Position numbers and translations under genes: made by a program. From Tenacibaculum sp. Bg11-29 (GTDB lineage Bacteria > Bacteroidota > Bacteroidia > Flavobacteriales > Flavobacteriaceae): a stretch of DNA of 64,000 bases. Location: assembly GCF_002836595.1 (NCBI RefSeq), contig NZ_PJBB01000003.1, forward strand, positions 3,564,501 to 3,628,500, written 5' to 3'. Shown piece by piece: positions 8,136 to 29,224 of the stretch. Each line of letters opens with the position of its first letter. Positions within the stretch are counted from its first letter, which is position 1. The notes under the pieces are model-generated. The model saw only the letters and a list, made by a program, of their open reading frames with translations. It was not told the DNA's origin and did no database searches.

Positions 8136-8257
8136 AAAAGTGTTGAAAAATTATTCTTTAAAATACTTAAAAATAAATTCATTTTCATTAATTAAAAACC
8201 TAAAAAACAGCAGTATGAAACTATACTTGTTCTATTTTAGGAGCGCAATATTACAAT

Positions 8258-8301
8258 AAAAAAGAGTCAATTTTCATTAAAATAAAAATTGACTCTTTTT
8301 T
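8258..8301. terminator. Strong bidirectional-looking hairpin terminator
   Basis: A 17-bp perfect stem (8258-8274 with 8285-8301, core AGAGTCAATTTT) is flanked by A-runs on one side and T-runs on the other. It lies 7 bases past the stop of the 56-aa gene, so it most likely ends the minus-strand LRR-gene transcript. Confidence 0.8.
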
Positions 8302-8308
8302 GTTGTAC

Positions 8309-8479: not shown

Positions 8480-8492
8480 TTTAAATTTAATA

Positions 8493-11400
8493 TTAATTAA
8501 TAATAACCTTCTTACTACGCTCTCCTTGTTCTGATTTAACTTTTACGATGTAAACTCCGGTTTGTAAGGTTGAAATATTAATGGTGTTTTCACCTTTAGC
8601 TTCAATCGTTTTTCTTAAAACAGCAGCTCCGTTAATAGCATACAACGCTACTTCAAAATTTCCTTTCGTTATACCTTTAATTATTAATTTTTTATTGTTT
8701 ACCGTATAAATTTTCACACTATTAAAATGAGGGACTTCAATAACTGATTCGTTTTGTGTTGTATGTAAATAAAACCGTCCGATTCCATTTACTTTCTCTT
8801 TTATTTTAACATCATAAGTTGTTTTTCCTTCAGCATCTAGTTTTGTAAATGTGTTTGTTTCTTTATCTTCTATAAACACAGCTACTCCTACTGGAAGATT
8901 TAATGATTTAATAGAAAAACTAATTTCTTCTGCTGATGCTGATTTTATTCCGATTGGAATACTCATTTCTTCATAAGCCGATTTTGGTAACGATTGAATC
9001 GTAAAATCTTGTGAATTTTCTGAAGCTACTAATCTTGTAAACACATCAAATGTTGCTCTTTCATAGTTTCCTAAATCGTATCCAGGATCTAGTCCTTTTG
9101 TAGCAGTATCAAGATACTTAATAGTTGCATCTATTGTAACTCCTTTTGATTTTGCTAATAATTGAATGCTTGGTGTTTTAGTCGCTGTTGTTCCTCTACT
9201 AAAATTACCTCCTGTTAAAGGCTGAACTTTTCTTTGGGCTTCATTAAATACAATATCTGATACTCCTGTTGTTGTTTTTATAAAAAATCCTTGCCCGGGT
9301 GCTAATGAACTTTCAGCTGTTACCAATGATTTACCAACATATTTACTTTGTGTACTATCCCAAACATATACTCCTACATAAGATGGCTCTAACTTAGCTG
9401 TATTATCATTCACAAAATTTGTTCCTCCGTTTTCATTAATCGGTAAAAACGTGGTGTAAGGATTCCCTATTGCATTCCACTCTGATGCTGTTACTAATTT
9501 TGTAACATTTGCTGTTTCTAAAGTTCCTGTAAACAGTATACTTCCGTCTGTTATTCTAGATATTGCATAACTCCTTCCCTTTTCAAAGGTTAACATATTT
9601 GTTGTTAAATCATCCGTAGTATAATAAATCCATTTTGTACCCGCAACTTTACTATCATCATAGTACCCTATTGCATATCTATTTGGAGTTACCGTAGTAT
9701 TTTTACGAATATCGTTTAATGGATTCTCTACAAATTCTTTAATACTTTGTCCTGAAACAGGTGCTGATACAATACTCCATTCATTTGCAATTAAACCTCC
9801 TCGTTCATAAGTTACTTGTCCGTTTGCTGTTCCTTTTACAAATAACACGCCACTATTATTCACTGTAGATGTAATACTAACGGTTCCATTATTCATAAAA
9901 TCGGAAGTTATAACTGCTGCTCCGTCAGAGGCTATATTAAATTCTGATGCTGCATTAACCGTTAAACTACTCACCTCAACTGTAATTCCTCCGTTAATAG
10001 TTGGTGCAGTAACTACATTAGGTATAAATACATCATCTGTAGCTAAAGGCTCCGTATTATTACTCCAGTTAGTACTTACATTCCAATCTGAACTTGTATT
10101 TCCACTCCAAACAGAAAAAGAACAATCTTCATTATAACTTGCTGTAACATCTTTATTCCAACTAGCATAGTTTCCTGTTCCGGCAGTAGCTTCAGTAGCG
10201 TTATCTACTTCGATACAAGTAAGATTTGGATTGTTGGTAGCTTCAAAACTAGTTATACTAGCATTGTTTCCGTTTTTAACATTCAAATAGGTTAATTTAT
10301 TATTATTATAAGCTACTAATCTTTCCAAAGCTACATTTTTAGAAACATCCAGCGTTGTTAATTGATTATTATGAATATATAAATCCTGTAAGACTAAGTT
10401 TTTAGTAAGATCAATACTAATAAAATCATTATCATTAGCCTCTAATTCTTCCAAAACTACATTTTTTGTAACATCAAGTATTGCTAATTTATTGTCCTGA
10501 ATATATAAAAACTCTAATATCAAATTCTTAGAAACATCGATACTTGTTAGCTCATTTTCATCACAAGATAAATTTGTTAATAATATGTTTTGTGTTACAT
10601 CTAAGCTTGTTATTTGATTATCATTACACTCAAAAAGGTCCAACTTTATATTCTGAGAGATATCTAAGCTCGTTAATTGGTTATCAGCAACGACTAAATT
10701 GGTCAGCTGTATGTTTTGAGATACATCTATGTCTGTTATAGAATTTCTATACAAATCTAAATTTGTGAGCGCTACATTCTTCGTAACATCTATATTGGTT
10801 AATAAGTTACCAATACAAACCAATTCTTCTAAAACTATAAAATTTGCAATACCGGTAAGATCGGCTATGCTTTGAGAAGAAATATCTAGATTGGTGATAT
10901 ATTTTATACTTTCAGTTCCAACATAATCATCATCGGCAATACCATTACCCATACTACTAGGGTCTCCTATCGTTACAACAGTTCCGGCAGCGTTATGAGT
11001 TTCTAGATAGGCTTCAAAATTATCATCTGGTACATTGGTTTGAGTACAGAATGCATTATATATGGTTTGTGCATCTTTTTTAATCAAATTTGCAGTAGCA
11101 GATGAAGGATCATCTACTGCTACACATATAAGATTTGGATTGTTTCTGATATCAAAATCACCTGTATCAAGATTTATGTTAGTACCGTTTTTGATGTTCA
11201 GATAGGTCAATTGATTATTAGAACAAGCAAACTCTTCTAATAGTGGATTTTGAGAAATATCTAAACTTGTGAGTTCATTAGATTCTGTATAAAAATTGAC
11301 AAGCTTTGGATTATTCGATACATCTAAGCTAGTCAATTGATTCTCGTAGCTGTATAAATTCTCTAAATTAGGGTTTTGTGTAACATCTAGCGTAGTCAAT

Positions 11401-13484
11401 TGATTCTCTATACAATCTAAACTTTCTAAAACACTATTTTGAGTTACGTCTAAATTCCCCAAAGGGTTACCATAACATGATAAATCAATCAAAGCAATAT
11501 TATTCGTAACATCTAAGCTTACTATTTCATTTCGACTACAATTTAAGTTTGTTAAAAGGATGTTTTTAGAAACATCTAAGTTTGTTAATTCATTTTGATT
11601 ACAAGCTAAAGTTCTTAAAAGAACGTTTTGAGAAACATCGATATCTATTAATTCGTTAGATCTACAATCTAACACTTCTAAGGCCGTAAAATCTGCAATA
11701 CCGGTTAGGTTCAATATCCCTAGAGAGCGAACATTTAAACTGACTACTATTTCTATTTTTTCGGTAGTTACAAGCTTATCATTCGCAACGCCATTCCCCA
11801 TACTCGTAGGGTCTCCAATAGTTACTGTAGTACCGTTTGCTGTATGCGTTTCAAGATAATTTTCAAAAGCAGTATCTGGCACATTGGTTACCCTACAATC
11901 TGTACTATAATATGCCTGTGTATCTTTATCCCAAGTTTTACTATTAAGATACGTTGCTGTAGCATCATCTACCAGAATACAATAAAGGTTCGGATTATCC
12001 TGTACTTCAACATCTAAATTTACATTGTTTCCGTTTTTAAGATTTAAACTCGTTAAGACATTATCTTGCAATTCAATTTCACCCAAAAGTATATTTTGCG
12101 TTAAGTCTAAACTTGTTAGTTTATTATCACTACAGTATAATTCTAGTAGTGCTGTATTTTTAGTAACATCTAAACTGGTGAGTGTGTTTTCATAGCATTG
12201 TAAATATTGTAATGCACTATTTAGAGTAACATCTAAATTGGTGAGTTGCGTAGCTACACAATCTAAGTCTTCTAAAAGCAGGTTTTTGGTTACATCTAAA
12301 TTACCTATTGGATTACTATAGCAAGATAATTTAGTTAATGCTGTATTTTGTGTAACATTTAAACTTGTTAAGTCATTTCTACTACAAAGTAAGCGCGTTA
12401 AAAGGAGGTTTTTAGAAACATCTATACTTGTTAAGTCATTATTATCAAAAGATAAACTGGTTAATGCAGTAAGTAAGGTAACATCTAATTCGGTTAATTC
12501 ATTTTTAGGAAGGGTAAGGTTTTCTAAAAGTATATTTTGAGAAAGGTTAATACCCGTTAGTTTATTTTCTCTAAGCGATAAAATAACCAGTGCCGTGTTC
12601 TTAGAAAGATCAATACTTACAAGTTCATTTTTATTAAAACTCAATTCTTCTAATGCGATAAAATCTTCAATACCTGTAGCATCTGATACTATTGTTAATG
12701 GATCAGCCACTTGCCCTGGAGGAACAAAAGAACCGTTTATTGATAATGTTGTCACATTTTTAATAGCACTCGTATATACATAATCATCATCAGCAATACC
12801 ATTTCCCATACTAGTAGCATCACCAAGTGTAACGGTATTACCATTAGCATCATGCGTTTCTAAATAGGTTTCAAAAGCAGCATCAGGTACATTGGTTTCA
12901 TTGCAATGTTCTGCAAAAGTAGCTGTATCAACTTGCCATAACACCAAGCTAGAAAGACTTGGATTATCAACTAAAATACATTCTAAATCGTAATTCGCTC
13001 TAGCATCAAAAGTACCTATAATTCCATTTTGTCCGTTTCTTACATCCAACAAAGTAAGATCATTATCTGCTATTCCTACCTGAAATAAAGCTGTATTAAA
13101 CTTCAAATCAAGTGATGTTAATTGATTAGATGTTAAATAAAGGTTTTTTAAAGCTGTATTCTTTGTAAGATTAATTTGAGTTAATGAATTACTACTACAA
13201 TTTAATTCTTCTAACGCTGTAAAATCTTCAATACCTGTAAGATTTGATATTCCTAAATTAGCAATATTTAAAACCACTACATTTATAATATTAGCTGTTG
13301 TAACTTTATTGTCATCTATTACACCATTCCCCATACTTGTTGGGTCATTTAAAGGCACTATAGTACCACTAGCATCATGTGTTTCTAAATAATTTTCGAA
13401 AGTAGCATCTGGTATACTAGTTTCTTGACTATATAAGATATAGTTGAAAAGGACGAAAAAAAGTAAGCATAGTTTTTTAATCAT
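8493..13484 (-). CDS. Large secreted leucine-rich-repeat protein with T9SS type A sorting domain
   Basis: A 1663-aa surface protein. The N-terminus is a signal peptide (KKLCLLFFVLFNYILYS). Four modules follow, each opening with a T(S/N)(I/V)PDxxFExYLETH block and a DPTSMGNG motif, then a ladder of 21-22-residue LRRs of the form LTSLDVTKNTALxxLxCxxN. The modules begin near residues 23, 195, 530 and 815, and each closes with a CI-V-D-like segment. After the last module (about residue 1130) comes a beta-rich region (SVWSGNTSSDWNVSTNWSN), common in flavobacterial surface proteins. The final 75 residues are a type A sorting domain (KIYTVNNKKLIIKG, LYAINGAAVLRKTI, TGVYIVKVKSEQGERSKKVI). This fits a BspA/internalin-like adhesin. 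It is transcribed divergently from the regulator at 13887 and co-transcribed with the 56-aa gene. Confidence 0.9.
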   Translation of the reverse strand: MIKKLCLLFFVLFNYILYSQETSIPDATFENYLETHDASGTIVPLNDPTSMGNGVIDDNKVTTANIINVVVLNIANLGISNLTGIEDFTALEELNCSSNSLTQINLTKNTALKNLYLTSNQLTSLDLKFNTALFQVGIADNDLTLLDVRNGQNGIIGTFDARANYDLECILVDNPSLSSLVLWQVDTATFAEHCNETNVPDAAFETYLETHDANGNTVTLGDATSMGNGIADDDYVYTSAIKNVTTLSINGSFVPPGQVADPLTIVSDATGIEDFIALEELSFNKNELVSIDLSKNTALVILSLRENKLTGINLSQNILLENLTLPKNELTELDVTLLTALTSLSFDNNDLTSIDVSKNLLLTRLLCSRNDLTSLNVTQNTALTKLSCYSNPIGNLDVTKNLLLEDLDCVATQLTNLDVTLNSALQYLQCYENTLTSLDVTKNTALLELYCSDNKLTSLDLTQNILLGEIELQDNVLTSLNLKNGNNVNLDVEVQDNPNLYCILVDDATATYLNSKTWDKDTQAYYSTDCRVTNVPDTAFENYLETHTANGTTVTIGDPTSMGNGVANDKLVTTEKIEIVVSLNVRSLGILNLTGIADFTALEVLDCRSNELIDIDVSQNVLLRTLACNQNELTNLDVSKNILLTNLNCSRNEIVSLDVTNNIALIDLSCYGNPLGNLDVTQNSVLESLDCIENQLTTLDVTQNPNLENLYSYENQLTSLDVSNNPKLVNFYTESNELTSLDISQNPLLEEFACSNNQLTYLNIKNGTNINLDTGDFDIRNNPNLICVAVDDPSSATANLIKKDAQTIYNAFCTQTNVPDDNFEAYLETHNAAGTVVTIGDPSSMGNGIADDDYVGTESIKYITNLDISSQSIADLTGIANFIVLEELVCIGNLLTNIDVTKNVALTNLDLYRNSITDIDVSQNIQLTNLVVADNQLTSLDISQNIKLDLFECNDNQITSLDVTQNILLTNLSCDENELTSIDVSKNLILEFLYIQDNKLAILDVTKNVVLEELEANDNDFISIDLTKNLVLQDLYIHNNQLTTLDVSKNVALERLVAYNNNKLTYLNVKNGNNASITSFEATNNPNLTCIEVDNATEATAGTGNYASWNKDVTASYNEDCSFSVWSGNTSSDWNVSTNWSNNTEPLATDDVFIPNVVTAPTINGGITVEVSSLTVNAASEFNIASDGAAVITSDFMNNGTVSITSTVNNSGVLFVKGTANGQVTYERGGLIANEWSIVSAPVSGQSIKEFVENPLNDIRKNTTVTPNRYAIGYYDDSKVAGTKWIYYTTDDLTTNMLTFEKGRSYAISRITDGSILFTGTLETANVTKLVTASEWNAIGNPYTTFLPINENGGTNFVNDNTAKLEPSYVGVYVWDSTQSKYVGKSLVTAESSLAPGQGFFIKTTTGVSDIVFNEAQRKVQPLTGGNFSRGTTATKTPSIQLLAKSKGVTIDATIKYLDTATKGLDPGYDLGNYERATFDVFTRLVASENSQDFTIQSLPKSAYEEMSIPIGIKSASAEEISFSIKSLNLPVGVAVFIEDKETNTFTKLDAEGKTTYDVKIKEKVNGIGRFYLHTTQNESVIEVPHFNSVKIYTVNNKKLIIKGITKGNFEVALYAINGAAVLRKTIEAKGENTINISTLQTGVYIVKVKSEQGERSKKVIIN

Positions 13485-16651: not shown

Positions 16652-17068
16652 TTAATCCACCAATGTTGTTTTGTGCGTCTCAATATTTGTAAGTACCGTT
16701 GTAAGTACTACAATTTGTGCTTCAAATTGTTGATGATCTATTTGATCTTCCAAAACATTAATGGTACTATAATTAGCATCTCTGTTTTCTAAAGCTTTTA
16801 ATTTCGTTTCTTCACGCTCAATTTTTAATTCCAAATCTCGTTTTTGTTTTCCTTCGCCAATTACAGCCAACGCTGCCTGAAAACCACCAATTATTGCTTT
16901 TACACTAATAATACCTTCTTTAACCGTAGTAGTTCTTACCGTTTTGTCATCTAACGATTCGCCTAAGTTTCTTAAACGTCTTTCTAACATTGTTTTTTCA
17001 ATTTGCGTAATTTTAATAGCCGCATCGCATTCTTTTTTTGTTGTTAACAATCCTAAATTCAATTCCAT
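16652..17068 (-). CDS. 138-aa coiled-coil protein of unknown function
   Basis: Not recognised. The sequence is almost wholly helical and charged (KKECDAAIKITQIEKTMLER; KQKRDLELKIEREETKLKAL), with one small hydrophobic patch (IISVKAIIGGFQAALAVIG, about residues 52-70) that might be amphipathic rather than membrane-spanning. It has no signal peptide. It ends at a clear terminator and lies between the 113-bp tandem repeats and the phased palindromes. Its orientation and the presence of a terminator support a real gene. Confidence 0.55.
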   Translation of the reverse strand: MELNLGLLTTKKECDAAIKITQIEKTMLERRLRNLGESLDDKTVRTTTVKEGIISVKAIIGGFQAALAVIGEGKQKRDLELKIEREETKLKALENRDANYSTINVLEDQIDHQQFEAQIVVLTTVLTNIETHKTTLVD

Positions 17069-17224
17069 AATATATTAATTTTAAATGATTACAATTTTTT
17101 AAAGGAGCAATTTCCCTTTCTTTTATAAATCTATTTTTTTTCGATTTATTGCCTCCTTAACTTTTTGTTAAGTGTATTTTAAGAGAAAACAGCTGAATTT
17201 TAACTTTTTGGGCGTAGTATAAGT

Positions 17225-17540
17225 GTTGCAGTGCAACGTATCAACACTCACAACAGAGTAAGACGAGTAAAGACGCGATTAATCACGTCTCAACAGGCAG
17301 GGTCTCCATAAATAATAGCTCAATTCATCATACAGACGTTGCAATGCAACGTCTCAACACCCACAACAGAGTAAGACAAGTAAAGACGCGATTAATCGCG
17401 TCTCAACAAGTAGGGTCTCCACAAATAATCGCTCAATTCATCATACAGACGTTGCAGCGCAACGTCTCAACACCCACAACAGAGTAAGACAAGTAAAGAC
17501 GCGATTAATCGCGTCTCCACAAGCAGGGTCTCCATAATTA
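17225..17540. repeat. 113-bp tandem repeat, about 2.7 copies, each with two palindromes
   Basis: Units begin at 17225, 17338 and 17451, exactly 113 bases apart. Each starts with a GTTGCA(A/G)(T/C)GCAAC palindrome and carries a GACGCGATTAATCGCGTC palindrome about 50 bases later (one base changed in unit 1). Shared spacers include CACAACAGAGTAAGAC and AATAATNGCTCAATTCATCA. The individual palindromes are the same as those at 15.6-15.9 kb. Confidence 0.9.
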
Positions 17541-17603
17541 ATCGGTAAAAACTCGTTTCAATACTTTTAAACCCTTTACTACTACACCTAAAACTTTTTT
17601 ACG

Positions 17604-17623
17604 GCTTCTTATGGCTTTCCGTA
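17604..17623 (+). repeat. 20-bp direct repeat, copy 1 (upstream of hsdM)
   Basis: GCTTCTTATGGCTTTCCGTA is identical to 29038-29057. In both places it is preceded by ACTTTTTT plus three bases, and followed about 30 bases later by a looser shared T-rich/GGC/AAAAAA block. It begins 171 bases before the hsdM start. Confidence 0.75.
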
Positions 17624-17774
17624 TGATTTATTGTTTGGGTTTTATTATTTTTATGGCTGCTTGAAAAAATGAACCCCGAAAAAAGAAAAAAGTGAAACAC
17701 AATACTACAATTGCAGCTTTATATAAAGCTCCATTTATACTAAATATCTCTCTTACTAATCACTATATTTATTA

Positions 17775-19391
17775 ATGGCTAAGAAACAACCAAAAGCTGA
17801 TATTAACTTTGAAAAAGAGTTATGGAAAGCTGCAAACGAACTTCGCGGTGCAGTAGCCGAGAATCAATATAAAGATTACATATTACCTTTAATATTTTTA
17901 AAGCACATATCCGAACGATATGAGTTACGTAGAGATGCGTTAAGTAATTTATTACAAGACAAAACTTCAGATTATTACACTTTAGATAAAGAAGAACAAA
18001 ATTACGTTTTAGAAGACCCAGACGAATACCTCTCTAAAAACACCTACATTATTTCAGAGAAAGCTACTTGGCAATTTCTACAAGATAATGCGGAGCAAGA
18101 TAATATTAAGGTATTGGTAGATGATGCTTTTGATTTGTTAGATCAAACTTTAGGTGATTACAGACCTGATTTAAAAGGTATTTTACCAAGAATATTTGTT
18201 AAAAGCCAATTAACCGCTAAACAAGTAGCAGGTTTAATAAACCTATTAGCAAACCCTAAACTTTCTGAAAAAGAAAATCCAGATAGTGATATTCTGGGGC
18301 GTGTGTACGAGTATTACATTGGTAAGTTTGCCATTGCTGAAGGTTCTGGTGCAGGACAATTTTTTACTCCTGGTAGTATTGTGCGTTTATTGGTAGAAAT
18401 GATAGAACCGTACGAAGGTAAAATATTTGATGCTGCTTGTGGTTCTGGAGGAATGTTTGTGCAATCTTTAAAGTTTTTACAAGCGCATGGAGGAGACAAG
18501 AAAAACATCTCTATTTACGGACAAGAAAGGTACGATGGTACCCTACGTTTATGTAAAATGAACTTGGCTTTACGCGATTTATCTTTCGATGTACGTTTAG
18601 GAGATTCATTATTACAAGACAAGTTTCCAGACTTAAAAGCTGACTTTATCATCGTAAATCCGCCTTTTAATGTGAGCCAATGGCATCCTGAAGATTTACC
18701 AGAAAACGACCCGCGTTTATTTGGACCTAAAGATGATTTTACAACCGATGGTAGCGCCAATTATATGTGGATGCAAACCTTTTGGAGTCATTTAAGCAAT
18801 ACTGGTACGGCAAGTGTAGTAATGGCAAATGGTGCAATGACCTCTAATAATAAAGGAGAGAAAAATGTACGCCAACACATGGTAGACAATAGCATGGTAG
18901 ATTGTATTGTGCGTTTACCTGACAAATTGTTTTTAACCACAGGAATACCTGCCTGTATTTTTATACTAAGTAAAAATAGAGATGGTAAAGACGGAAAACA
19001 TAGAGAACGCACCAACGAAATTCTGTTTATAGACACCTCTAAAATGGGAACTATGGAAAGCAGAAAGCTACGTGTGTTTACCGATGATGATATTAATAAA
19101 GTAACGGAAACCTATCACAATTGGCGAAACGTCATTGCGAGCGAGGAACGAGCGAAGCAATCTGCCCAATATGAAAACGAAGCAGGCTACTGCTACAGTG
19201 CAACCCTCCAAGAAGTTCAAAAACAAGACTACAAACTAACCCCTGGTATTTATGTAGGTACTGAAGCGGTTGAAGATGATGGTATTCCTTTTGAAGATAA
19301 AATGACTTCTTTAAAAGCGCAATTGCAAACCCAATTTACAAAAGGGGATGAATTACAGCAACAGATTTTAGATAATTTCAAAAAATTTTAA
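17775..19391 (+). CDS. hsdM: Type I restriction-modification DNA methyltransferase subunit HsdM
   Basis: Modification subunit that makes N6-adenine methylation in the HsdM2S complex. It is 538 aa, normal for the family. It has the N-terminal HsdM helical domain (FEKELWKAANELRG), then FFTPGSIVRLLVEMI (about 195-210). The SAM-binding motif DAACGSGGMF lies near 220 and the catalytic NPPF near 295-298 in IIVNPPFNVS. At 19130-19164 the coding sequence contains an interspersed DNA repeat, which inserts the peptide NVIASEERAKQSA between NWR and YENEAGYCYSATLQEVQ. The flanking residues are the usual HsdM C-terminal sequence, so the insertion probably sits in a tolerant loop. It leads an operon with the STAND, hsdS and hsdR genes. 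Confidence 0.95.
   Translation: MAKKQPKADINFEKELWKAANELRGAVAENQYKDYILPLIFLKHISERYELRRDALSNLLQDKTSDYYTLDKEEQNYVLEDPDEYLSKNTYIISEKATWQFLQDNAEQDNIKVLVDDAFDLLDQTLGDYRPDLKGILPRIFVKSQLTAKQVAGLINLLANPKLSEKENPDSDILGRVYEYYIGKFAIAEGSGAGQFFTPGSIVRLLVEMIEPYEGKIFDAACGSGGMFVQSLKFLQAHGGDKKNISIYGQERYDGTLRLCKMNLALRDLSFDVRLGDSLLQDKFPDLKADFIIVNPPFNVSQWHPEDLPENDPRLFGPKDDFTTDGSANYMWMQTFWSHLSNTGTASVVMANGAMTSNNKGEKNVRQHMVDNSMVDCIVRLPDKLFLTTGIPACIFILSKNRDGKDGKHRERTNEILFIDTSKMGTMESRKLRVFTDDDINKVTETYHNWRNVIASEERAKQSAQYENEAGYCYSATLQEVQKQDYKLTPGIYVGTEAVEDDGIPFEDKMTSLKAQLQTQFTKGDELQQQILDNFKKF
19130..19164 (+). repeat. Interspersed repeat inside hsdM coding sequence
   Basis: CGTCATTGCGAGCGAGGAAC with the following AGCGAAGCAATCTG is the reverse-orientation form of the element at 1542-1578 and 23834-23862. 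Here it is read in frame without a stop and adds about 12-14 residues to HsdM. Confidence 0.8.
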
Positions 19392-19392
19392 C

Positions 19393-22300
19393 ATGAAAAT
19401 TCTACATTTAACAGATTTCCATTATGATGGGAGTAATAAATATAAAGAGGATGAAATCAGATTGGTAAAATCTTTAACAGATAGCTTAAATAGATACAAA
19501 GAAAAAATAGATTTAGTTTTATTTTCAGGAGATTTAGTTTACAAAGGTGATGATTTAAAAGTTTTTAAGGCATTTGAAAAATTATTTTTCGATAGTATTT
19601 CCGAAATATTAAATATAAAAAAAACATCAATATTTATCTGCCCTGGTAATCATGATGTCTTTAGAAATCAAGAATTAGATGAAATAAAAGACTCTATATT
19701 TAAGATTGATGATAATGATAATTTAGATCAATTTGTCTTAAAAAACAATGGAAAATCATTAAAATTTAGCTTAGAAAATTTAAATAACTATTATGAATTT
19801 CAAAAAGACTTTTACAAAGACCATGTAACACTATTTGAAGATGATTTAGTAGATAATTTATATACTAATCACATTCGAACTTTTGACGGAAAAAAAATAG
19901 GAATAACTACCTTAAATTCAGCATGGAGAGCTAATGATTCTGATAAAGATTCTGGTAATTTAATGTACCCAATTCATTATTTAAAAAAAGCATCTAGAGA
20001 ACTAGGAGAATGTGATTTGAAAATAATAATACTTCATCATCCATTAAGTGATTTTAGATATTGGAATCAGTATAGTTTAGAAGATATTATTTATAAGGAT
20101 TACGATATGATGTATTCAGGTCATGTCCATAACAACAGAGATACAGTACATATAACTTCAGGCATTGGAATTTATCATTCAACTTCTTCTGCTACATTAA
20201 GTGGAGAAAGAGATACGATTGGATACACAATTATAGATGTTGATGTAGAATCGTTTGAATTGGGTCTTACAAATGTAATTTTTAATAAAAATGAAGAGAA
20301 GTTTTATTTCGGTGATCAAAGAAATGCTCAAATCCCTGTTGATAAAGAAAAACAGCAACAAAATAAATTTAGAGTAACTATACGTAAAAGATTTAAACAA
20401 CAATCAAAAACAGCCAATAAACTGTTCTTGTCATATAAGGAAATTAAAGAAGAAAATGACTTCATAAAATTATTTACAAAGCCAGTTATTAAAGCTGAAT
20501 CGCAAAGCAACCCTAATCCAAAAAATAAAAAAAGATTTAGTTTAGAAGAATTAATATTAAACAAAGAAGAAAATCAAATTTTATTTGGTAAAGATAAGAG
20601 TGGAAAATCAGCAACACTTTATAAAATAACACTAGATATATTACATCATTTCCACACACTAAAAACACTACCTATATACATTGATTGCCAAGTACTAATC
20701 AACACCAAAAACACACTTGATATTATTGATACTTTAAGTGATTTTTATGAAACTAATAAAAAAAGTGCTTCAAATTTATTAGAAGACTACCATTTAAAAA
20801 TCGTATTAGATAATTTTGATGATAATGAAAGCTTAATTTTAAATCCTCTTTTTAAGTTTTTAGATTCTCACAAAAATTGTTCTATCATAGCTGCAAGTAA
20901 CGAAACTATATTTTCTTCATTTGCAGGTGGTTTGATAGGAAATATAAATTTTGTAAATAGATATTTACATGATTTAACTAGAACAGAAATTAGAGCCTTA
21001 ACAGATAAATGGCCAGATATATCTGATGAAAAAAGAACTCAAGTTGTAGAGAAAATACATACGGTATTTAATCAATTAAATATTCCTTCAAATTATTGGA
21101 CAGTTTCTCTTTTTATCTGGATTTTTCAAAAAAATATAGATGCTAATCTTGGTAATAATTTTCAACTCATTGAACTATATATTGACAGTTTGTTGGATAA
21201 AGATAATTTTATTCTTTCAAAACAATATAAAATTGATTTTGGTGATTTAAAAGATTTTTTAAGTGCTCTAGCTCACAAGTTAGCTACTACATATCAACAA
21301 AATAATTATTTAGTGAAGTACGGACAATTGATAGACTTTATTGATGAATACAAAACACAAAACAAAAGATTTGTAATTGAAACTAAAACATTATCAGATT
21401 TACTAATAGAAAAAGGGATTCTAAAATCTACTGATCAAGAAAACTTTACTTTCAGGCTGAATGGTGTTTTTGAATATTTCTTGGGTTACTACATGGCTTA
21501 CGATGAGGGTTTTAGAAATAAAGTAATTGATCATGATGATTTCTATTTATCATTTAAAAATGAATTTGAAGTTTGTGCTGGTATAATTCCGCAAGATTAT
21601 GAGTTTGTAAAAAGAATTTTTGACCGAACAAAACACATTTATACCGACATTAACAAAGAAGTTAATATGTCTAATTTAGATGCTTTACTTTTGGGTAAAG
21701 TAAAGGATTCTTTTAATATTTCAGATGTAAATGCAAAGGATTCTTTTAATATTTCAGATGTAAATACAATACTTAAAGAAACCATTCAAGATTCTCTTGA
21801 ACCAAAAGAACAAGATGATATACTAGAGTCTTTAGCTCCTTCAGGTGAAAGGATATCAGATGTAAAACCAAAAAAATACTATAGCGAAATAAATAACAAC
21901 TCAGATAATTTAGAAAATGCTCTTCACATATTAGGTCGTGTATATAGAAACTCTAAGATTAAAAGAAGAGATGAATTTAATAAAGATGTCTTTAATTTTA
22001 TTTTAAATAGTACATGTACCTTTTCACTTTCTTTAATAGAAGACATTAGTTCTCAAGGAATAAGTGAAGTAGACGATGAAATTACTGAAAAAAATTTAAT
22101 CAAACTTCTTACTCAATTTTTACCAATTGTAGCACAAACATTTTTCTACGATATGGCAATTCAAGCTAACATGGAAATTGTTCTCAAAGAAAAGATAGAG
22201 GAACTAAAGAAAAAGAAAAAAGGTAATGAATTAAAACTTATAATTTTATATTTTTCTTTGATTGATTTAGATTTAAAAAACCACACAAACTTAATTGAAG

Positions 22301-22518
22301 AACTAATTGAAATAATAAGCATTCCAATTCTTAAACAAACAACAGTGTTTAAACTTTATCTATACCTAAGTTTTAAATGTAATGGAAACAAGACATTGAA
22401 AAAAACAATTAGCCAATTAATTAAAAAACAAGAACTTAAAATTGATAAAAGTCAAAATGTAGGTTTAATCGAACAACGTATTAAGTCTATTGAAAAATCA
22501 ATTAAAAAGAAGTTATAG
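19393..22518 (+). CDS. Metallophosphoesterase-STAND/NACHT-like NTPase, probable antiphage protein
   Basis: A 1041-aa fusion. The N-terminal ~310 residues are a calcineurin-like phosphoesterase with all motif blocks visible: DFHYDG (8-13), SGDLVYKGDD (about 44-54), CPGNHD (about 82-88), LHHPLSDF (about 213) and SGHVHNN (about 242). A STAND-type P-loop ATPase follows: Walker A GKDKSGKS near 398-405, Walker B LKIVLDNFDD near 469, then SIIAASNE and HDLTRTEIRALTDKW as in NACHT proteins. The C-terminal ~450 residues are helical and probably act as the sensor. A 33-bp tandem duplication lies near residue 770. It sits 1 base after hsdM and directly abuts hsdS. STAND proteins with N-terminal effectors are established phage defences; here the phosphoesterase would be the effector. 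Its target is unknown. Confidence 0.8.
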   Translation: MKILHLTDFHYDGSNKYKEDEIRLVKSLTDSLNRYKEKIDLVLFSGDLVYKGDDLKVFKAFEKLFFDSISEILNIKKTSIFICPGNHDVFRNQELDEIKDSIFKIDDNDNLDQFVLKNNGKSLKFSLENLNNYYEFQKDFYKDHVTLFEDDLVDNLYTNHIRTFDGKKIGITTLNSAWRANDSDKDSGNLMYPIHYLKKASRELGECDLKIIILHHPLSDFRYWNQYSLEDIIYKDYDMMYSGHVHNNRDTVHITSGIGIYHSTSSATLSGERDTIGYTIIDVDVESFELGLTNVIFNKNEEKFYFGDQRNAQIPVDKEKQQQNKFRVTIRKRFKQQSKTANKLFLSYKEIKEENDFIKLFTKPVIKAESQSNPNPKNKKRFSLEELILNKEENQILFGKDKSGKSATLYKITLDILHHFHTLKTLPIYIDCQVLINTKNTLDIIDTLSDFYETNKKSASNLLEDYHLKIVLDNFDDNESLILNPLFKFLDSHKNCSIIAASNETIFSSFAGGLIGNINFVNRYLHDLTRTEIRALTDKWPDISDEKRTQVVEKIHTVFNQLNIPSNYWTVSLFIWIFQKNIDANLGNNFQLIELYIDSLLDKDNFILSKQYKIDFGDLKDFLSALAHKLATTYQQNNYLVKYGQLIDFIDEYKTQNKRFVIETKTLSDLLIEKGILKSTDQENFTFRLNGVFEYFLGYYMAYDEGFRNKVIDHDDFYLSFKNEFEVCAGIIPQDYEFVKRIFDRTKHIYTDINKEVNMSNLDALLLGKVKDSFNISDVNAKDSFNISDVNTILKETIQDSLEPKEQDDILESLAPSGERISDVKPKKYYSEINNNSDNLENALHILGRVYRNSKIKRRDEFNKDVFNFILNSTCTFSLSLIEDISSQGISEVDDEITEKNLIKLLTQFLPIVAQTFFYDMAIQANMEIVLKEKIEELKKKKKGNELKLIILYFSLIDLDLKNHTNLIEELIEIISIPILKQTTVFKLYLYLSFKCNGNKTLKKTISQLIKKQELKIDKSQNVGLIEQRIKSIEKSIKKKL
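21702..21767 (+). repeat. 33-bp in-frame tandem duplication
   Basis: The unit AAAGGATTCTTTTAATATTT plus CAGATGTAAATGC occurs at 21702 and again at 21735, giving the peptide KDSFNISDVN twice in a row in the C-terminal part of the STAND protein. A looser ISDVK follows about 30 residues later. Confidence 0.85.
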
Positions 22519-23766
22519 ATGCCAAACAACTGGAAAAAATGTAAACTCTCTGAAATAACAACCAAGATTGGCAGTGGAGCAACACCTAGAGGAGGAAAAG
22601 GCGCATACAAAGAATCTGGTATTTCACTTATTCGAAGTCAAAATGTTTTGAATTTTAAATTTTCAGTTAGAGGTTTAGCTTTTATAGACGAGGATCAAGC
22701 AGACAAACTTAAAAATGTTATAATTGAAGAAAATGATGTATTATTAAACATAACAGGGGATTCTGTTGCTAGAGTTTGTAGTGTTCCAAATGAATACTTA
22801 CCAGCAAGAGTAAATCAACATGTTGCTATTATAAGAGCAAACAATAATCAATTAGATTCTGATTTTTTAAAATTTGCCTTATTAGAAAAATCAAATAAGG
22901 ATTTATTATTGGCTTTAGCTAGTGCTGGAGCAACAAGGAATGCTATTACAAAATCTATGATTGAAGATTTTGAATTAAAACTCCCCCCACTCCCAGAACA
23001 AAAAGCAATAGCAAACATCCTATCAGCAATAGACGATAAAATAGAAAACAACCTAGCCACAAACAAAACCTTAGAAGAAATGGCTATGGCATTCTACAAA
23101 CATTGGTTTGTAGATTTTGGTCCTTTTCAAGATGGTGAGTTTATAGAGAGTGAATTGGGGCGAATTCCTAAAGGTTGGGAAGTGAAAAGATTAAATGATT
23201 TAGCACACATATTAAATTCTAAAAGAGTTCCTTTAAGTACAGGGCAAAGAAGTACAAGAAAAGGGGAATACCCATACTATGGAGCATCAGGCATAATTGA
23301 TAATATTGATGATTTTATTTTTGATGGAGAATATGTGATTATATCTGAAGACGGAGAAAACTTACGCTCACGAAAAACACCAATTGGCTTTAGTGCAGTT
23401 GGAAAATTCTGGGTTAATAATCATGCACATATTTTAGAAGGAATACAGAATGGAATTAATAAATTGATTATTTGCCATATTGCTCAAATGGACATGAACC
23501 CTTATTTAACAGGAGCTGTACAACCAAAATTGAATAAAAACAACTTACTTTCAATTGGTATTGCAATGCCAAAAGAAGATTCAATTATTCAGGAGGTTTT
23601 AAGCGAATTTTATTCAATATCTAGATTGATTTTTTCAAATGAAGATAAAAATCAAACTCTAACAAAACTACGCGACACCCTATTACCAAAACTAATAAGT
23701 GGAGAAGTACGTTTGAAAGAATTTAGAGAACAAGTAGAAAACGTCATTACGAACACAGTGAAGTAA
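22519..23766 (+). CDS. hsdS: Type I restriction-modification specificity subunit HsdS
   Basis: Recognises the bipartite DNA target for the type I complex. It is 415 aa, with two target-recognition domains (about 1-155 and 215-365). Each is followed by a conserved helix: LPPLPEQKAIANILSAID with KIENNLATNKTLEEMA near 155-190, and LTKLRDTLLPKLISGEVR near 380-400. The ATG directly follows the stop of the STAND gene. The extreme C-terminus (VENVITNTVK and the stop codon) is encoded by an interspersed repeat at 23742-23769, so the natural tail has been replaced by repeat-derived residues. The target sequence cannot be predicted here. Confidence 0.93.
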   Translation: MPNNWKKCKLSEITTKIGSGATPRGGKGAYKESGISLIRSQNVLNFKFSVRGLAFIDEDQADKLKNVIIEENDVLLNITGDSVARVCSVPNEYLPARVNQHVAIIRANNNQLDSDFLKFALLEKSNKDLLLALASAGATRNAITKSMIEDFELKLPPLPEQKAIANILSAIDDKIENNLATNKTLEEMAMAFYKHWFVDFGPFQDGEFIESELGRIPKGWEVKRLNDLAHILNSKRVPLSTGQRSTRKGEYPYYGASGIIDNIDDFIFDGEYVIISEDGENLRSRKTPIGFSAVGKFWVNNHAHILEGIQNGINKLIICHIAQMDMNPYLTGAVQPKLNKNNLLSIGIAMPKEDSIIQEVLSEFYSISRLIFSNEDKNQTLTKLRDTLLPKLISGEVRLKEFREQVENVITNTVK

Positions 23767-23862
23767 TCTCATAATGGTAACTAAATAAGAAACAGATTGC
23801 TTTGTTCCTTGCGATGATAGTAATTAAATAAAAAACAGATTGCTTCGTACCTCGCAATGACG
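23742..23862. repeat. Cluster of three interspersed repeats between hsdS and hsdR
   Basis: One copy is in CGTCATT...AATCT orientation (23742-23769, overlapping the hsdS 3' end). Two copies are in the opposite AACAGATTGC...GCAATGACG orientation (23791-23817 and 23834-23862). Opposed copies can pair into a long imperfect hairpin, which could weaken or tune read-through into hsdR. Confidence 0.75.
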
Positions 23863-23893
23863 GTATAAAAGCAATAACAGAAAGAAAAAGAAA

Positions 23894-26800
23894 ATGACAA
23901 CAGAAGCAACCATAGAACAAGCCACTATAGATTGGTTATCAGATTTAGGATACACGCACCAATTAGGTACTACCCTAGCCCAAAACCATACTAAAGAAGT
24001 AGTATTAAAAGATCGGTTGCTTCAGTTTATACAACAACAATACCCAAACATTCCAAAAGAGATTCAAACCTTGGCTGTGTCTGAGTTTACCAATAATGCA
24101 GGCGCAGATCTAGAGCACCGTAATCGTAGTTTTCATTTAAAACTCACCAAAGGTTTGGAGTTTGCTTATGAAGATGCTTCAGGTAAAGAAAAAGCAGTTC
24201 ATATATATCCTATCGATTTTACAACCCCAGAAAACAACACCTTTTGGGCTGTGAATCAGTTTAGTATTACAGGGAAAAATAAACGTCGTCCAGACATTAT
24301 TATTTACATTAATGGTTTGCCCTTAATTGTATTTGAGTTAAAAAACTGGTACGACCAAAACACCAATGTAAAAGAAGCACACAACCAAATACAACATTAC
24401 AAAAAAGACATTCCGTTGTTGTTTGAGTATAATGCCATTACTATTATTAGCGATGGTAACGAGGCACAACATGGTATGTTTAGTTCGGGTATGGAGTGGT
24501 TTGCCGCTTGGAAAAGTATTGATGGTACAGATACCGTACAGGAAGACGATTTTCAGATGCATAGCTTGTTATTTGGTCTGTTTCCTAAAGACAGAATTCT
24601 TAATTATATAAAAAACTTCATATTTCATGAAGACCATAATGGTACGCTTATAAAAAAAGGTGCAAAGTATCACCAGTTTTTCGGAGTAAACTTTGCGGTA
24701 GCCGCAGCAAAAAAATCGGTACGTCCGTTTGGTGATGGTCGTATTGGAGTTATTTGGCATACCCAAGGCTCAGGTAAAAGTATTTCTATGGCAATGTACA
24801 CTGGTATTTTGCGCAGTTTACCCGCATTGAAAAATCCAACCATTGTAGTACAAGTAGATCGTAGTGATTTAGATAGACAATTGTATGAAAACTTTGTGCT
24901 AGCAAAAGATTTGGTGGGCGATGTGCAACATGCCGATACCACCAATGATTTAAGAAAATTGTTAAGTGCAGGTGCTGGTGGTGTTATTTTTACCACCATA
25001 GAAAAATTCAGACTAAAACAAACCACGGACGATGCACTAGGCGAATTGGAACATCCTATTTTGTCGGAACGAGAAAACATTATCGTTATGGCAGACGAAG
25101 CACACAGAACGCAATATGGTTTATTAGACGGTTTTGCTTCTAACTTACGTAAAGCATTACCACAAGCCTCTTTTATTGGTTTTACAGGAACACCCATAGA
25201 TAGTAAAGATGCCGATACACAAGAAGTTTTTGGAAACGTAATTCATACCTACGATATAAAACAAGCCGTAGCAGACAACGCCACCGTAAATATTTATTAC
25301 GAACCTCGTTTGGCAAAGTTGCATTTATGGAATGAAAATATTGATGCCGAAGTAGATGCGATAACCGAAGACATTGAGGATAATAGTAACCTAAAATGGG
25401 CAGCTATTGAAGATGCCGCTGGTAGTAAAGACCGTGTGCATAAAATAGCAACAGATATACTAAATCATTATACCAACAGAACCAACACCTTAGCAGGAAA
25501 AGCCATGGTGGTTTGCATGAGCAGACGTAATTGCGTAAAAATGTACAATGCTTTAACAGCTTTAGAAGGTTGCCCAGAAATAGCTGTTGTTATGACAGGT
25601 AATATTTCTAAAGATCCCGTAGGTTGGAATCCGCATATTAGAACTAAAGATGCTACCGAAGGTATAAAAGCGCGGTTTAAAAAAGAAGACGATCCTTTAA
25701 AAATTGTAATTGTTAGAGATATGTGGCTAACTGGTTTTGATGCACCTTGTGTGCATACCATGTATATAGATAAAATTATGAAAGGTCATAATTTAATGCA
25801 AGCCATTACCAGAACCAACAGAGTTTTAAAAGATAAGAAAAACGGTGTTATTGTAGATTATATTGGTATTGGCGATAATTTAAAAACAGCAACTGGTAAA
25901 TATACTGGCGGTGGCGGAAAAGGCAAGCCAACGATAGATATGCATCAAGCTTTAGAGTTGTTTTTTAATCAGGTTGAAATATGCAAAGCATTTATTCCTG
26001 CAACCATTGATTATACTGATTGGAAACGCTTACGAGATGGAGACAAAGTATTATTAGTAAAGGCAGCTTTAAATCATGTTATTAAATATGAACAAGACGC
26101 TAATAATTATATGAAGGCAGAAAAAACGGTGTCTAGTTTATTATCTATCGTAAAAAGTCAGCCTGAAATACAAGAGTATGCAGTAGCTGTAATATTTGCA
26201 CAACATGTGTCTAAAGCAATTCGTAACGCAAAATCTGTAACCAATAGCAGAGGCGAGCAAAAAGAAAAAATTAAAGAACTTATTAGCCAAAGTATCGATT
26301 CAGAAGATATTGTAGATGTCTTTGCAATGGCAGGTATAGAGAAGCCGGACATTTCCATTTTAGACGAAACCTTTTTATTGGGTGCAAAGCAAGAAAAAGA
26401 TGGTCATGCTTTAAAGATAGAATTGATAAAAAATATTCTGAAAAATGAAATTAAACTTCGACTTCATAAAAACATTAAAAAATACACTTCACTAAGGGAA
26501 GAGTTAGAAAAAGTTATAGACAGGTACCACACCAATGCATTAGATAGTTACGCCACTATTGCCGAAATGGTAACACGTGCAAAAGATTTACAAAATGATG
26601 ATAAACGAACCAAAGAGTTAGGTTTAAGCGAAGAGGAATTAGCATTCTATGATATCCTAGCAACGAAACAAGACCTTATTAAAGAAAAAGGATTAGTTCA
26701 GGATATTGTACATGCAGTTGTAAAAGCCGTAAAGGATAATCTTGAATTAGATTGGACAAAAAAAGGAGAAGCTAAAGCTGCAATACGGTTAGCCGTAAAA

Positions 26801-26899
26801 AAAGAATTAAAAAAGAAAGTAAGTTTACTGAAACTTAATGAAATTTTAGAAGAAATCATGCAACAAGCTGAAGGTCAGTTTAGCGAGTGGACTGCTTAA
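23894..26899 (+). CDS. hsdR: Type I restriction endonuclease/translocase subunit HsdR
   Basis: Motor and nuclease subunit of the type I system, 1001 aa. The N-terminal PD-(D/E)XK nuclease is visible as RPDIIIYINGLPLIVFELKN near residues 132-151, giving D and E-x-K. The SF2 translocase has Walker A TQGSGKS near 290-296, the DEAH box in MADEAHRTQYG near 399, motif III FIGFTGTP near 430, and later VIVRDMWLTGFDAP and QAITRTNR. The C-terminal helical part binds HsdM. It is separated from hsdS by 127 bases of repeats but is on the same strand. All motifs look intact. Confidence 0.95.
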   Translation: MTTEATIEQATIDWLSDLGYTHQLGTTLAQNHTKEVVLKDRLLQFIQQQYPNIPKEIQTLAVSEFTNNAGADLEHRNRSFHLKLTKGLEFAYEDASGKEKAVHIYPIDFTTPENNTFWAVNQFSITGKNKRRPDIIIYINGLPLIVFELKNWYDQNTNVKEAHNQIQHYKKDIPLLFEYNAITIISDGNEAQHGMFSSGMEWFAAWKSIDGTDTVQEDDFQMHSLLFGLFPKDRILNYIKNFIFHEDHNGTLIKKGAKYHQFFGVNFAVAAAKKSVRPFGDGRIGVIWHTQGSGKSISMAMYTGILRSLPALKNPTIVVQVDRSDLDRQLYENFVLAKDLVGDVQHADTTNDLRKLLSAGAGGVIFTTIEKFRLKQTTDDALGELEHPILSERENIIVMADEAHRTQYGLLDGFASNLRKALPQASFIGFTGTPIDSKDADTQEVFGNVIHTYDIKQAVADNATVNIYYEPRLAKLHLWNENIDAEVDAITEDIEDNSNLKWAAIEDAAGSKDRVHKIATDILNHYTNRTNTLAGKAMVVCMSRRNCVKMYNALTALEGCPEIAVVMTGNISKDPVGWNPHIRTKDATEGIKARFKKEDDPLKIVIVRDMWLTGFDAPCVHTMYIDKIMKGHNLMQAITRTNRVLKDKKNGVIVDYIGIGDNLKTATGKYTGGGGKGKPTIDMHQALELFFNQVEICKAFIPATIDYTDWKRLRDGDKVLLVKAALNHVIKYEQDANNYMKAEKTVSSLLSIVKSQPEIQEYAVAVIFAQHVSKAIRNAKSVTNSRGEQKEKIKELISQSIDSEDIVDVFAMAGIEKPDISILDETFLLGAKQEKDGHALKIELIKNILKNEIKLRLHKNIKKYTSLREELEKVIDRYHTNALDSYATIAEMVTRAKDLQNDDKRTKELGLSEEELAFYDILATKQDLIKEKGLVQDIVHAVVKAVKDNLELDWTKKGEAKAAIRLAVKKELKKKVSLLKLNEILEEIMQQAEGQFSEWTA

Positions 26900-26911: not shown

Positions 26912-28102
26912 ATGGAATACACCAAATTAGAAACATTACTTCATGAGTCTGGAGACATTGTAAGTGCCCATCTTAAAGATAGTAGAGAAAAAGGAGAAGA
27001 CTTTAATGTTTTTTCCATCTTAGGTATGGAAACGAATGAAACCAAAACACATGCTGCAATGTTGGTGGCACTATTAGATCCTAAAGGAACTCATTATCAA
27101 AATGAAAAATTTTTAACTCTATTCCTTAAAGAAATTGGTTACAAAAATTATGAAGAGGAAGATTTAATGTTAGTCAAAGTAAAAACAGAACATTATTTGG
27201 GTAAAATACCTGAAGATTATACAAGCGGTGGTTTTATAGATATTTTAATAACATTTCCTTCAGGAAAAGCAATAGCTATAGAAAATAAAATTGATGCAGG
27301 CGATCAACCAAAACAACTATATAGATATAGTCTGTTTAAAGGTGGTGCTTGTGATTTATTCTATTTAAGTAAAACAGGAAGGCAACCAACAAAAGAAAGT
27401 CTTGATAATTTAACAGATAGAGATTATAAAGTGATTTCTTATAACAACCATATATTAAATTGGCTAACGCAATGTTTAGCTATTGTTAAAACAAATTCAA
27501 TAGTAGAAAGTGTCATAAAACAATATCAGATTTTAATTAAAAACATTACGAATAGCATGGATAATAATTTAGAAAATGATTTAAATACACTCATTGTAAA
27601 TAATCTTGAGGAGGCTAAATATATACATTCTCATTATCAAAAAGCAATCGATAACATTAGAGATAAATTTAGAAACGCAATTTGCGATAAATTAAATAAC
27701 TTAGAACTAAATGTAAACGCAGTACTTGGTAACGATATTACAAATGTTTATTCACAAATATGGTTAAAATCTGATGCTCTTGATAAAAAAGGAGCCCTAC
27801 TAGGGTTAGAATCGTTTTCTGGTCAAGGAAATACTAAAGGATGTATGTTTGTTGGTATTTTAGATAGAAAAAATGAGTATGATACTATAAGAGATGGTGA
27901 TTATAGATTAAGCAGTTATTGGCCTTTAATAAGCGATCTTAAAACTACAGAGGACAATCCTTTAAATTTAACAAGTACTAATACACTTGAAAAGCTAATA
28001 AATAATCCTACTTATTTTGAAGAAATGGTAACTACTGTTGTAAACCAAACAAAAGATTTTGTAGATGCTTATCATGATCTTTATTTTCCTAGTAATGATT
28101 AA
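26912..28102 (+). CDS. PD-(D/E)XK nuclease superfamily protein (PDDEXK_4-like)
   Basis: A 396-aa protein 12 bases after hsdR, so probably in the same operon. The N-terminal half has the PDDEXK_4-like arrangement: FSILGMETNETKTHAAMLVA with LLDPKGTHYQ (about 32-65), then GGFIDILITFPSGKAIAIEN followed by KIDAGDQPKQLYRY (about 110-145). That supplies the Asp of the first strand and E-N-K of the second. The C-terminal part has no motif I know. Family members are often found in restriction and defence loci. It may be an accessory nuclease or a defence gene carried with the type I system. The presence of both strands' catalytic residues suggests activity. Confidence 0.75.
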   Translation: MEYTKLETLLHESGDIVSAHLKDSREKGEDFNVFSILGMETNETKTHAAMLVALLDPKGTHYQNEKFLTLFLKEIGYKNYEEEDLMLVKVKTEHYLGKIPEDYTSGGFIDILITFPSGKAIAIENKIDAGDQPKQLYRYSLFKGGACDLFYLSKTGRQPTKESLDNLTDRDYKVISYNNHILNWLTQCLAIVKTNSIVESVIKQYQILIKNITNSMDNNLENDLNTLIVNNLEEAKYIHSHYQKAIDNIRDKFRNAICDKLNNLELNVNAVLGNDITNVYSQIWLKSDALDKKGALLGLESFSGQGNTKGCMFVGILDRKNEYDTIRDGDYRLSSYWPLISDLKTTEDNPLNLTSTNTLEKLINNPTYFEEMVTTVVNQTKDFVDAYHDLYFPSND

Positions 28103-28205
28103 TTAGGTACGAAACGGATAATATAATTTGATAATAAGAAGTATCATTTAGAAACAGTGCTATGTTACTTTAAGTAAATGATATATACTAAAAGAAAAAG
28201 TAAAA

Positions 28206-28985
28206 TTGTTTTTTATGGATACTAATTACGATAGATATGGTTCAGCAGCTATAGAAGCTGCTTTGTGTGGAGTAAATCCCATTGTGGCATGGAAAAAAGC
28301 AACTAAAGAACTTTCTTTTAGTGATTCTTCTCAAGAAAAACCTTGTCCTAAAAATGCTTTTTTAGGCTTATGTGAAGATGGTTTAGTCAAAGGAATTAAA
28401 GCTGATTTTTATTTAAAAAAATCAACCTCAAAGAAGAATAAAAAATACGCTATTGCAGCTGTAAAATTATTAAGAACCAACTCTACTCTTTCAAGAAATG
28501 AGTTATGGAATCATATTGCAGAAGAATTCTCTTTAGGTGACATGCCCCATAATTCTCAAATGGATGTTGTCTTGGGATTGTGGAGTGAGAAATTAATTGT
28601 TAAAAAAAGTATGACTGCCCATAACAAATATGCCAAAACAGCTATAGAATGCGTTGAAAATTTCAAAGAATCTAACTGTATTAAGGAAATGTGGGTTAAA
28701 TATGTAAAAGAAAATTTTGATACCAAAAGTTCACAAGAAAAAGGTTGCCCAAAAAATGCATTTTTAGGTTTATGTGAAGAAGGTTTAGTAAAAGGAATTC
28801 CAAAAGGAAATTATACCAAGTCAGTTAAGAATAAAGAATATGCTTTACAAGCTATTGATATATTAAAGCAAAATACATTTTTACCGAAAGAATTATGGGA
28901 ACAATTAGAACTTGGAGATAAAAAGCATAACTCTCAAATGAATGTTGTATTGGCTCTTTGGGAGAATGATTTGATTTTGAAATAA
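28206..28985 (+). CDS. Internally duplicated protein of unknown function in the R-M operon
   Basis: A 259-aa protein built from two ~125-residue copies of one domain. Copy 1 has SSQEKPCPKNAFLGLCEDGL, VKGI, and later HNSQMDVVLGLW with SEKLI. Copy 2 has SSQEKGCPKNAFLGLCEEGL, VKGI, and HNSQMNVVLALW with ENDLI. The N-terminal pieces (YGSAAIEAALCGVNPIVAWK / YAKTAIECVENFKE) also align. No catalytic motif, signal peptide or membrane segment is evident; the repeated Cys residues could bind metal. It resembles an uncharacterised family I have seen beside restriction genes, but I do not assign a function. It is 103 bases after the PD-(D/E)XK gene and may have its own promoter. Confidence 0.65.
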   Translation: MFFMDTNYDRYGSAAIEAALCGVNPIVAWKKATKELSFSDSSQEKPCPKNAFLGLCEDGLVKGIKADFYLKKSTSKKNKKYAIAAVKLLRTNSTLSRNELWNHIAEEFSLGDMPHNSQMDVVLGLWSEKLIVKKSMTAHNKYAKTAIECVENFKESNCIKEMWVKYVKENFDTKSSQEKGCPKNAFLGLCEEGLVKGIPKGNYTKSVKNKEYALQAIDILKQNTFLPKELWEQLELGDKKHNSQMNVVLALWENDLILK

Positions 28986-29037
28986 AGAATAAGAAAGCTC
29001 ATAAGATCTTTTTTAATACGTCCATTACTTTTTTCTA

Positions 29038-29057
29038 GCTTCTTATGGCTTTCCGTA
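29038..29057 (+). repeat. 20-bp direct repeat, copy 2 (upstream of mcrB)
   Basis: Identical to 17604-17623. It begins 187 bases before the mcrB start codon, much as copy 1 lies 171 bases before hsdM. The two copies enclose the whole type I operon (about 11.4 kb). Confidence 0.75.
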
Positions 29058-29224
29058 ACCTTAATTATTTGAAGTTCTTTATTTTTAGGCGACTAAAAAA
29101 AGTAATCAAGAAAATCTCCCATAAAATCAAGGAAGTAATTAAATTTAATAAAAATCATAATTGTAAAAATCGATATTTTTTTCGCTTTATTACATAATAA
29201 TTTAATTGATAAATAAAAAAAGTT

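Follow-up and report, generated by a model that had tools for sequence, protein, structure and literature searches.

DS-8 is a single-protein system that combines a metallophosphatase with a NACHT domain and was reported to stop phage in E. coli (DefensePredictor, Science 2026, PMC13092281). According to the same report, defence was lost when one or the other of two catalytic residues, or one NACHT residue, was mutated, and the head was read as SMPDL3A-like, with its substrate given as unknown. Defence genes have also been described within the hsd operons of type I restriction-modification (R-M) systems, such as DarTG2 in enteropathogenic Escherichia coli (EPEC; PMC12255303). Further reported cases are TgvAB on Vibrio pathogenicity island 2 (VPI-2) of V. 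cholerae and the rlo genes of C. jejuni. Here we analyse a gene for a metallophosphoesterase (MPE) fused to a signal transduction ATPase with numerous domains (STAND), which lies inside an hsd operon in a 64,000-nt stretch of Tenacibaculum sp. Bg11-29 (NZ_PJBB01000003.1), called the window below; L and G numbers are locus and genome labels. Judging from the architecture, conserved residues, family assignment and stand-alone relatives of the protein and from the turnover of genes at its position, we read it, with a probability of roughly 0.78, as a self-contained anti-phage protein of the PDC-S60/DS-8 kind, similar to NOD-like receptors (NLRs), that is carried as exchangeable cargo in a type I operon.

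The MPE-STAND gene occupies positions 19393..22518 on the + strand (ATG at 19393, stop codon TAG at 22516-22518) and encodes 1041 aa. Residues 1-313 (19393..20331, +) form a metallophosphoesterase domain, which was matched by PF00149 (Metallophos) at residues 1-247 with 48.2 bits against a cut-off of 21.5. Calcineurin-like metallophosphoesterases carry the motif set DxH...GD...GNH...H...GHxH, and the corresponding ligands are present as D8, H10, D47, N86, H215, H244 and H246. The STAND/NACHT NTPase core at residues about 384-610 (20542..21222, +) has a P-loop (399-406), a Walker-B-like motif (470-475) and an NLR-like fold, its structure model matching NOD2, NLRC4 and Avs4 (Avs4 2.3e-5, AVAST5 2.5e-3). 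Residues 605-1041 (21205..22515, +) comprise a winged-helix-like part and an irregular helical tail, the putative sensor; within them, PF24406 (nSTAND_NTPase4) matched residues 639-697 with 44.8 bits (cut-off 27). An earlier note, made from the letters of the DNA, had described a 1041-aa open reading frame (ORF) joining a phosphoesterase, a P-loop STAND module and a helical C-terminus, and the coordinates, the Pfam matches and the structure matches all agree with that description. The note had also made its reading depend on conservation of the metal and P-loop residues. All seven metal ligands were kept in 14/14 aligned sequences, the window included, as was the Walker-B-like D473, while the P-loop lysine K405 was found in 13/14. 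This alignment omits L016/L028, whose reading frame is broken close to the start and whose open ORF is therefore missing the first motifs. The window protein was 72% identical to that of a second locus, L025. Over 1029 codons compared between the two, nonsynonymous divergence (pN) was 0.163 and synonymous divergence (pS) 0.709, with synonymous sites near saturation. The gene has been under purifying selection between the window and L025, and the MPE-STAND observation is far beyond chance.

The full protein was matched by the PADLOC-DB 2.0.0 model PDC-S60 (PDLC05051) with 1383.6 bits, over profile positions 1-1024 of 1027. We found no difference between the window protein and this family, whose database entry carries no description; PDC presumably stands for 'phage defence candidate'. 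NCBIfam NF053861 (DS8_antiphage) matched residues 5-702 with 163.1 bits, under its equivalog cut-off of 790. Like DS-8, the window protein has a metallophosphatase head and a NACHT/STAND-type NTPase in one chain. It differs in that its tail lies outside the match and in that DS-8 is described as a single-protein system, whereas the window copy is nested in hsd. Both profiles also matched the six other MPE-STAND proteins scanned, with DS-8 scores of 157.7-190.2 bits, none of which reach 790. Two of these six, from a Klebsiella plasmid (L164) and a Sphingomonas plasmid (L165), scored 402 and 364 bits to PDC-S60. The window protein is thus only distantly related to DS-8 and is not DS-8 itself, though it may work like DS-8. 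The earlier note had proposed an undescribed system. That proposal falls with the full-length PDC-S60 match and with the published defence and mutant data for DS-8, which has the same architecture: the kind is already known and tested, and the window protein is a new member of it, distant from DS-8. These results connect the PDC-S60 family, whose domains and residues they map, with an MPE-NACHT protein for which defence has been demonstrated by experiment.

The phosphoesterase domains of DS-9A (NF053862) and of loci L020-L024 are homologous to the head of the window protein, which scored 54.2 bits to NF053862; the MPE of L021 scored 125 bits to PDC-S60. In DS-9, as reported, head and partner are on separate proteins and the partner is a HAD phosphatase (PMC13092281). 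The two-gene version at L020-L024 pairs an MPE of about 370 aa with a directly adjoining downstream protein, which has about 1190 aa in most of these loci and 803 aa in L024, and the partner in L021, the one scanned among these loci, is a NACHT protein. Avs/AVAST proteins have the STAND NTPase fold in common with the window protein. Apart from PDC-S60, no PADLOC family matched the window protein at E<=0.1, in a library that should include Avs models.

By analogy with DS-8 and with NLR and Avs proteins, the helical C-terminal tail would recognise a phage product. The STAND/NACHT NTPase would then exchange nucleotide and oligomerise, and the N-terminal heads would be gathered and hydrolyse a phosphodiester, in a cyclic or other nucleotide or in nucleic acid, so that infection stops. 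A different chemistry, compatible with the rest of this scheme, is that the head is a nuclease like Mre11/SbcD and breaks down DNA or RNA of the phage or the host, rather than being a phosphodiesterase for nucleotides or cyclic nucleotides. The head has a phosphodiesterase fold, and Mre11 (17.2) was among its structure matches, with GpdQ (17.9) about equal. SMPDL3A (20.6) and Rv0805 (19.3) scored above Mre11, PDLC00736 did not match the window protein at E<=0.1, and an SMPDL3A-like head is what the DS-8 report describes (PMC13092281). Fold alone does not decide the substrate of the head, and a nuclease is a candidate that we consider less likely than not.

The operon around the gene has hsdM as its 5' shell, encoding a 538-aa N6-adenine methylase subunit (17775..19391, +; PF02384 315.5 bits, PF12161 72.9 bits). 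The hsdM stop codon TAA is followed by a single base (C) and then by the ATG of the MPE-STAND gene. On the other side, hsdS starts at 22519 with 0 nt between and encodes 415 aa with two target-recognition domains (TRDs; 22519..23766, +; PF01420 123.8 bits in two stretches). The 1001-aa HsdR is encoded at 23894..26899 (+; PF11867, PF18766, PF04313). The coordinates bear out the 1-base and 0-base spacing on the two sides of the gene that the earlier note had described. The MPE-STAND gene is thus embedded between hsd genes on the same strand and at operon spacing, and the nested arrangement recurs in L025, where the two gaps measure 3 and -1 nt. The window case resembles PrrC, DarTG2, TgvAB and the rlo genes, as these are described, in having a defence gene inside an hsd operon. 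DarTG2, TgvAB and RloF are reported from between hsdS and hsdR, whereas the slot in the window is hsdM-hsdS and its cargo is an MPE-STAND gene.

This slot was compared across related operons. The HsdM survey mapped 20/55 matches in the family sample, a draw of 397 genomes, with the window among them, and 7/7 further matches in the class sample, a draw of 395 genomes. Fifteen loci had an HsdM of >=63% identity, and the 14 with a whole HsdM formed one clade (100/100); the L025 HsdM fragment was left out of this tree. Counting a gap as filled if it held a same-strand ORF of >=60 aa, and leaving out L166, in which hsdS was not recognised, and L167, which lies at a contig end, the hsdM-hsdS gap was filled in 12/13 informative loci of this close clade, the remaining one (L168) having 342 nt and no ORF. 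The hsdS-hsdR gap was filled in 0/12 loci that reach hsdR. The next HsdM group (41-45% identity, 13 loci, L144-L156) showed the reverse, with hsdS-hsdR filled in 12/13 and hsdM-hsdS in 4/13 (Fisher 2.7e-6 and 0.0036, values that ignore the relatedness of the loci). Different type I lineages thus seem, from gene order, to use different cargo positions.

The contents of the slot are diverse. Ten of the 13 slots hold cargo recognised by Pfam, not counting an IS200-like transposase that stands alone in L169. Besides MPE-STAND in the window and L025, these are an AAA_15 ATPase with an OLD-like TOPRIM (L138; the TOPRIM match is below its cut-off), KAP NTPases (L139, L141 and L143), SIR2-TIR with putAbiC and IrrE-like proteins (L140), RhuM-Fic with GIY-YIG (L142), a YhcG nuclease (L172) and, as a second STAND effector in the same position, an Mrr-nSTAND3 fusion (L170:7842-10217, -). 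L171 has a single 111-aa ORF with no Pfam match. In tblastn searches at E<=1e-3, MPE-STAND was absent from the slot of 11/13 related operons, all but the window and L025. The G+C content of the slot was below that of hsdM in 13/13 loci, the non-coding gap of L168 included (25.5% vs 36.0% in the window). The clade-specific cargo slot is the more interesting part of these results, and further defence effectors can readily be sought there.

Comparison of the 13 loci by DNA indicated where exchange may have occurred. In 76/78 locus pairs the slot had no match longer than 30 nt; the exceptions were window-L025, which share the whole cargo, and L139-L143, which share 165 nt. Among the 76 pairs, the end of the hsdM match fell 0-20 nt beyond the stop codon (14 pairs), in the final 50 nt of hsdM (32), 51-100 nt ahead of the stop codon (20) or 195-418 nt ahead of it (10). 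Beyond the slot, homology resumed in hsdS in 65/78 pairs, usually in the central conserved region of HsdS at about residues 150-222, and in hsdR in 6. Between the window and L138, for example, 78% identity extended over hsdM as far as the stop codon, over hsdS residues 147-414 and over hsdR, HsdM and HsdR being closely related (84%), while the cargo and TRD1 differed. L169 and L170 were 92% identical in hsdM and hsdR and had different slot contents. We infer that this is the pattern that repeated replacement by homologous recombination in conserved flanks would leave. On our reading, the hsdM-hsdS gap of this clade is a slot whose occupants, defence genes from different families, are swapped for one another; the edges of the exchange lie no later than the hsdM stop codon on one side and mostly inside hsdS on the other. 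The cargo would gain the expression and mobility of the operon, which is most likely what its position provides.

A stronger version is that this Bacteroidota lineage of type I R-M systems has a dedicated cargo bay in which effector and first HsdS target-recognition half can move as one cassette, reaching from the end of hsdM to the HsdS central conserved region, and that the bay is kept because the expression or state of HsdM/HsdS controls the cargo. If true, one cassette exchange would change restriction specificity and second-line effector together. Identity between the window and L025 is 74% over the stretch that runs from hsdM across the cargo as far as HsdS residue 222; the L025 contig ends at HsdS residue 274, which puts TRD2 outside this comparison, and its HsdM fragment was 72% identical to L138 against 64% to the window. 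Against a joint cassette, the pairs L170-L171, L170-L172 and L171-L172 share TRD1 and not cargo. We regard this version as tentative and rather doubtful.

The distribution of the family bears on how closely the protein is bound to restriction. PDC-S60 matched in 2/395 genomes of the phylum at E<=1e-60 (own genome counted) and in 12/397 genomes of the family at E<=1e-30 (own genome, two-gene loci and distant members counted), and the window protein as query matched in 2/97 genomes of the genus at E<=1e-10 (own genome counted). A scan of genome contigs listed at least 590 stretches and at least 84 relatives, of which 80 were kept, so that member counts are lower bounds. At >=28% identity, with each record counted once, at least 13 full-length members were listed: the window, L025, L026, L027, L028, L029, L030, L031, L032, L034, L039, L014 and L137. 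L028 was taken as L016, L029 as L017 and L039 as L015, each being counted once; L137, whose match carries stop codons at its extreme end, and L016/L028, whose match carries one, are counted as full-length by DNA span. The earlier note had suggested searching genomes for the same fusion between hsdM and hsdS. The fusion recurs, but only 2 of the 13 listed members, the window and L025, are nested in hsd. For the remaining 11, no mapped neighbour matched the window Hsd proteins (blastp, E<=1e-5, or 1e-4 for part, in stretches of 14-23 kb). In the tree, the nested pair forms one clade (100/100) among the stand-alone members, and L137 is its neighbour. Moreover, no Methylase_S match (E<=1e-5) was found in G103, which is in one contig, or in G662 and G753, which are 99% complete, that is, in 3/6 genomes tested that have a stand-alone homologue. 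Methylase_S matches were present in G827, G725 and G395, the homologue in G395 being a distant one. Because of the stand-alone members and the three genomes without a Methylase_S match, the MPE-STAND family is, as judged by gene content, independent of type I R-M systems.

These results also bear on whether the protein guards the restriction enzyme. It would then be held silent by HsdM/HsdS and freed by a phage anti-restriction protein, and the slot would be kept for guardians. The precedent is PrrC, which EcoprrI, encoded at the same locus, keeps silent and which T4 Stp activates (PMC2610378, PMC12707154). The tight operon coupling in the window and L025, the repeated presence of effector-type genes in the slot and the single clade of the two nested copies, which could have specialised, are consistent with such a role. 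The invariable linkage of PrrC to type I R-M is not seen here, and the stand-alone majority and G103, G662 and G753 argue against a guardian role; so do the related HsdM/HsdR of the window and L138, which accompany different cargo. RloC, a PrrC relative, is reported to be likewise mostly unlinked, with 8/72 in R-M loci (PMC2610378, PMC12707154). In G827, G725 and G395 HsdS is encoded elsewhere, and action in trans is possible there. A guardian role is thus possible for the two nested copies and is not a property of the family; on balance we consider it unlikely, and a back-up function tied to the hsd operon is not supported for the family. Interchangeable cargo is a better reading than a back-up for inhibited restriction, and with the slot it can be tested cleanly whether embedded genes guard the restriction enzyme or travel as passengers. 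That the protein has no part in defence and serves the R-M system as a housekeeping or regulatory phosphoesterase, for which its place inside the operon is the sole point, is highly improbable given its sporadic distribution, its absence from most related slots, its STAND architecture and the PADLOC model.

Several observations weigh against an NLR-like defence protein carried as exchangeable cargo. The literature search found no phage assay for the window protein or any PDC-S60 member, and trigger and chemistry may differ from those of DS-8, because 163 bits is far below the cut-off of 790. The tail lacks a recognised sensor fold. It has also not evolved faster than the head (78% vs 68% identity, window vs L025), which speaks against an arms-race sensor because such a sensor might evolve faster than the head. 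Only two nested copies were seen among the members listed, and they are sister sequences; one of them, L025, is a 4.5-kb low-coverage contig of a metagenome-assembled genome labelled Algicola, a gammaproteobacterial genus, and may be misbinned. The 165-nt match between L139 and L143 means that not every cargo is wholly unrelated. Finally, three + strand terminator-like sites lie inside hsdM and hsdS, and co-transcription with the hsd genes is something we infer.

Just 5' of the hsd operon, at window positions 17225-17563, are three tandem 113-nt repeats (100, 92 and 81% identity) containing palindromes such as AGACGCGATTAATCGCGTCT. The 113-nt unit matched the whole genome here only, with 5 matches at E<=1e-5, all within 2 kb. 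Window positions 17000-24000 hold 7 terminator-like sites, against 2.6 in shuffles (standard deviation 1.7), two of them in the repeats 5' of hsdM. After hsdR, positions 26912-33215 are rich in defence genes: a PDDEXK_4 protein (PDC-S26, 499.5 bits), a tandem DUF6979 protein, a McrB-like AAA protein with PD-T4-1 and PDC-S02 matches and a McrC-like protein. An M48-family peptidase lies near this cluster at 33591-35699; the EPEC DarTG2 island, as described, likewise has an M48 peptidase (PMC12255303). Two very large reverse-strand ORFs of 2113 and 1663 aa occupy window positions 1794-13484 (-), and the 1663-aa ORF has leucine-rich-like repeats by eye.

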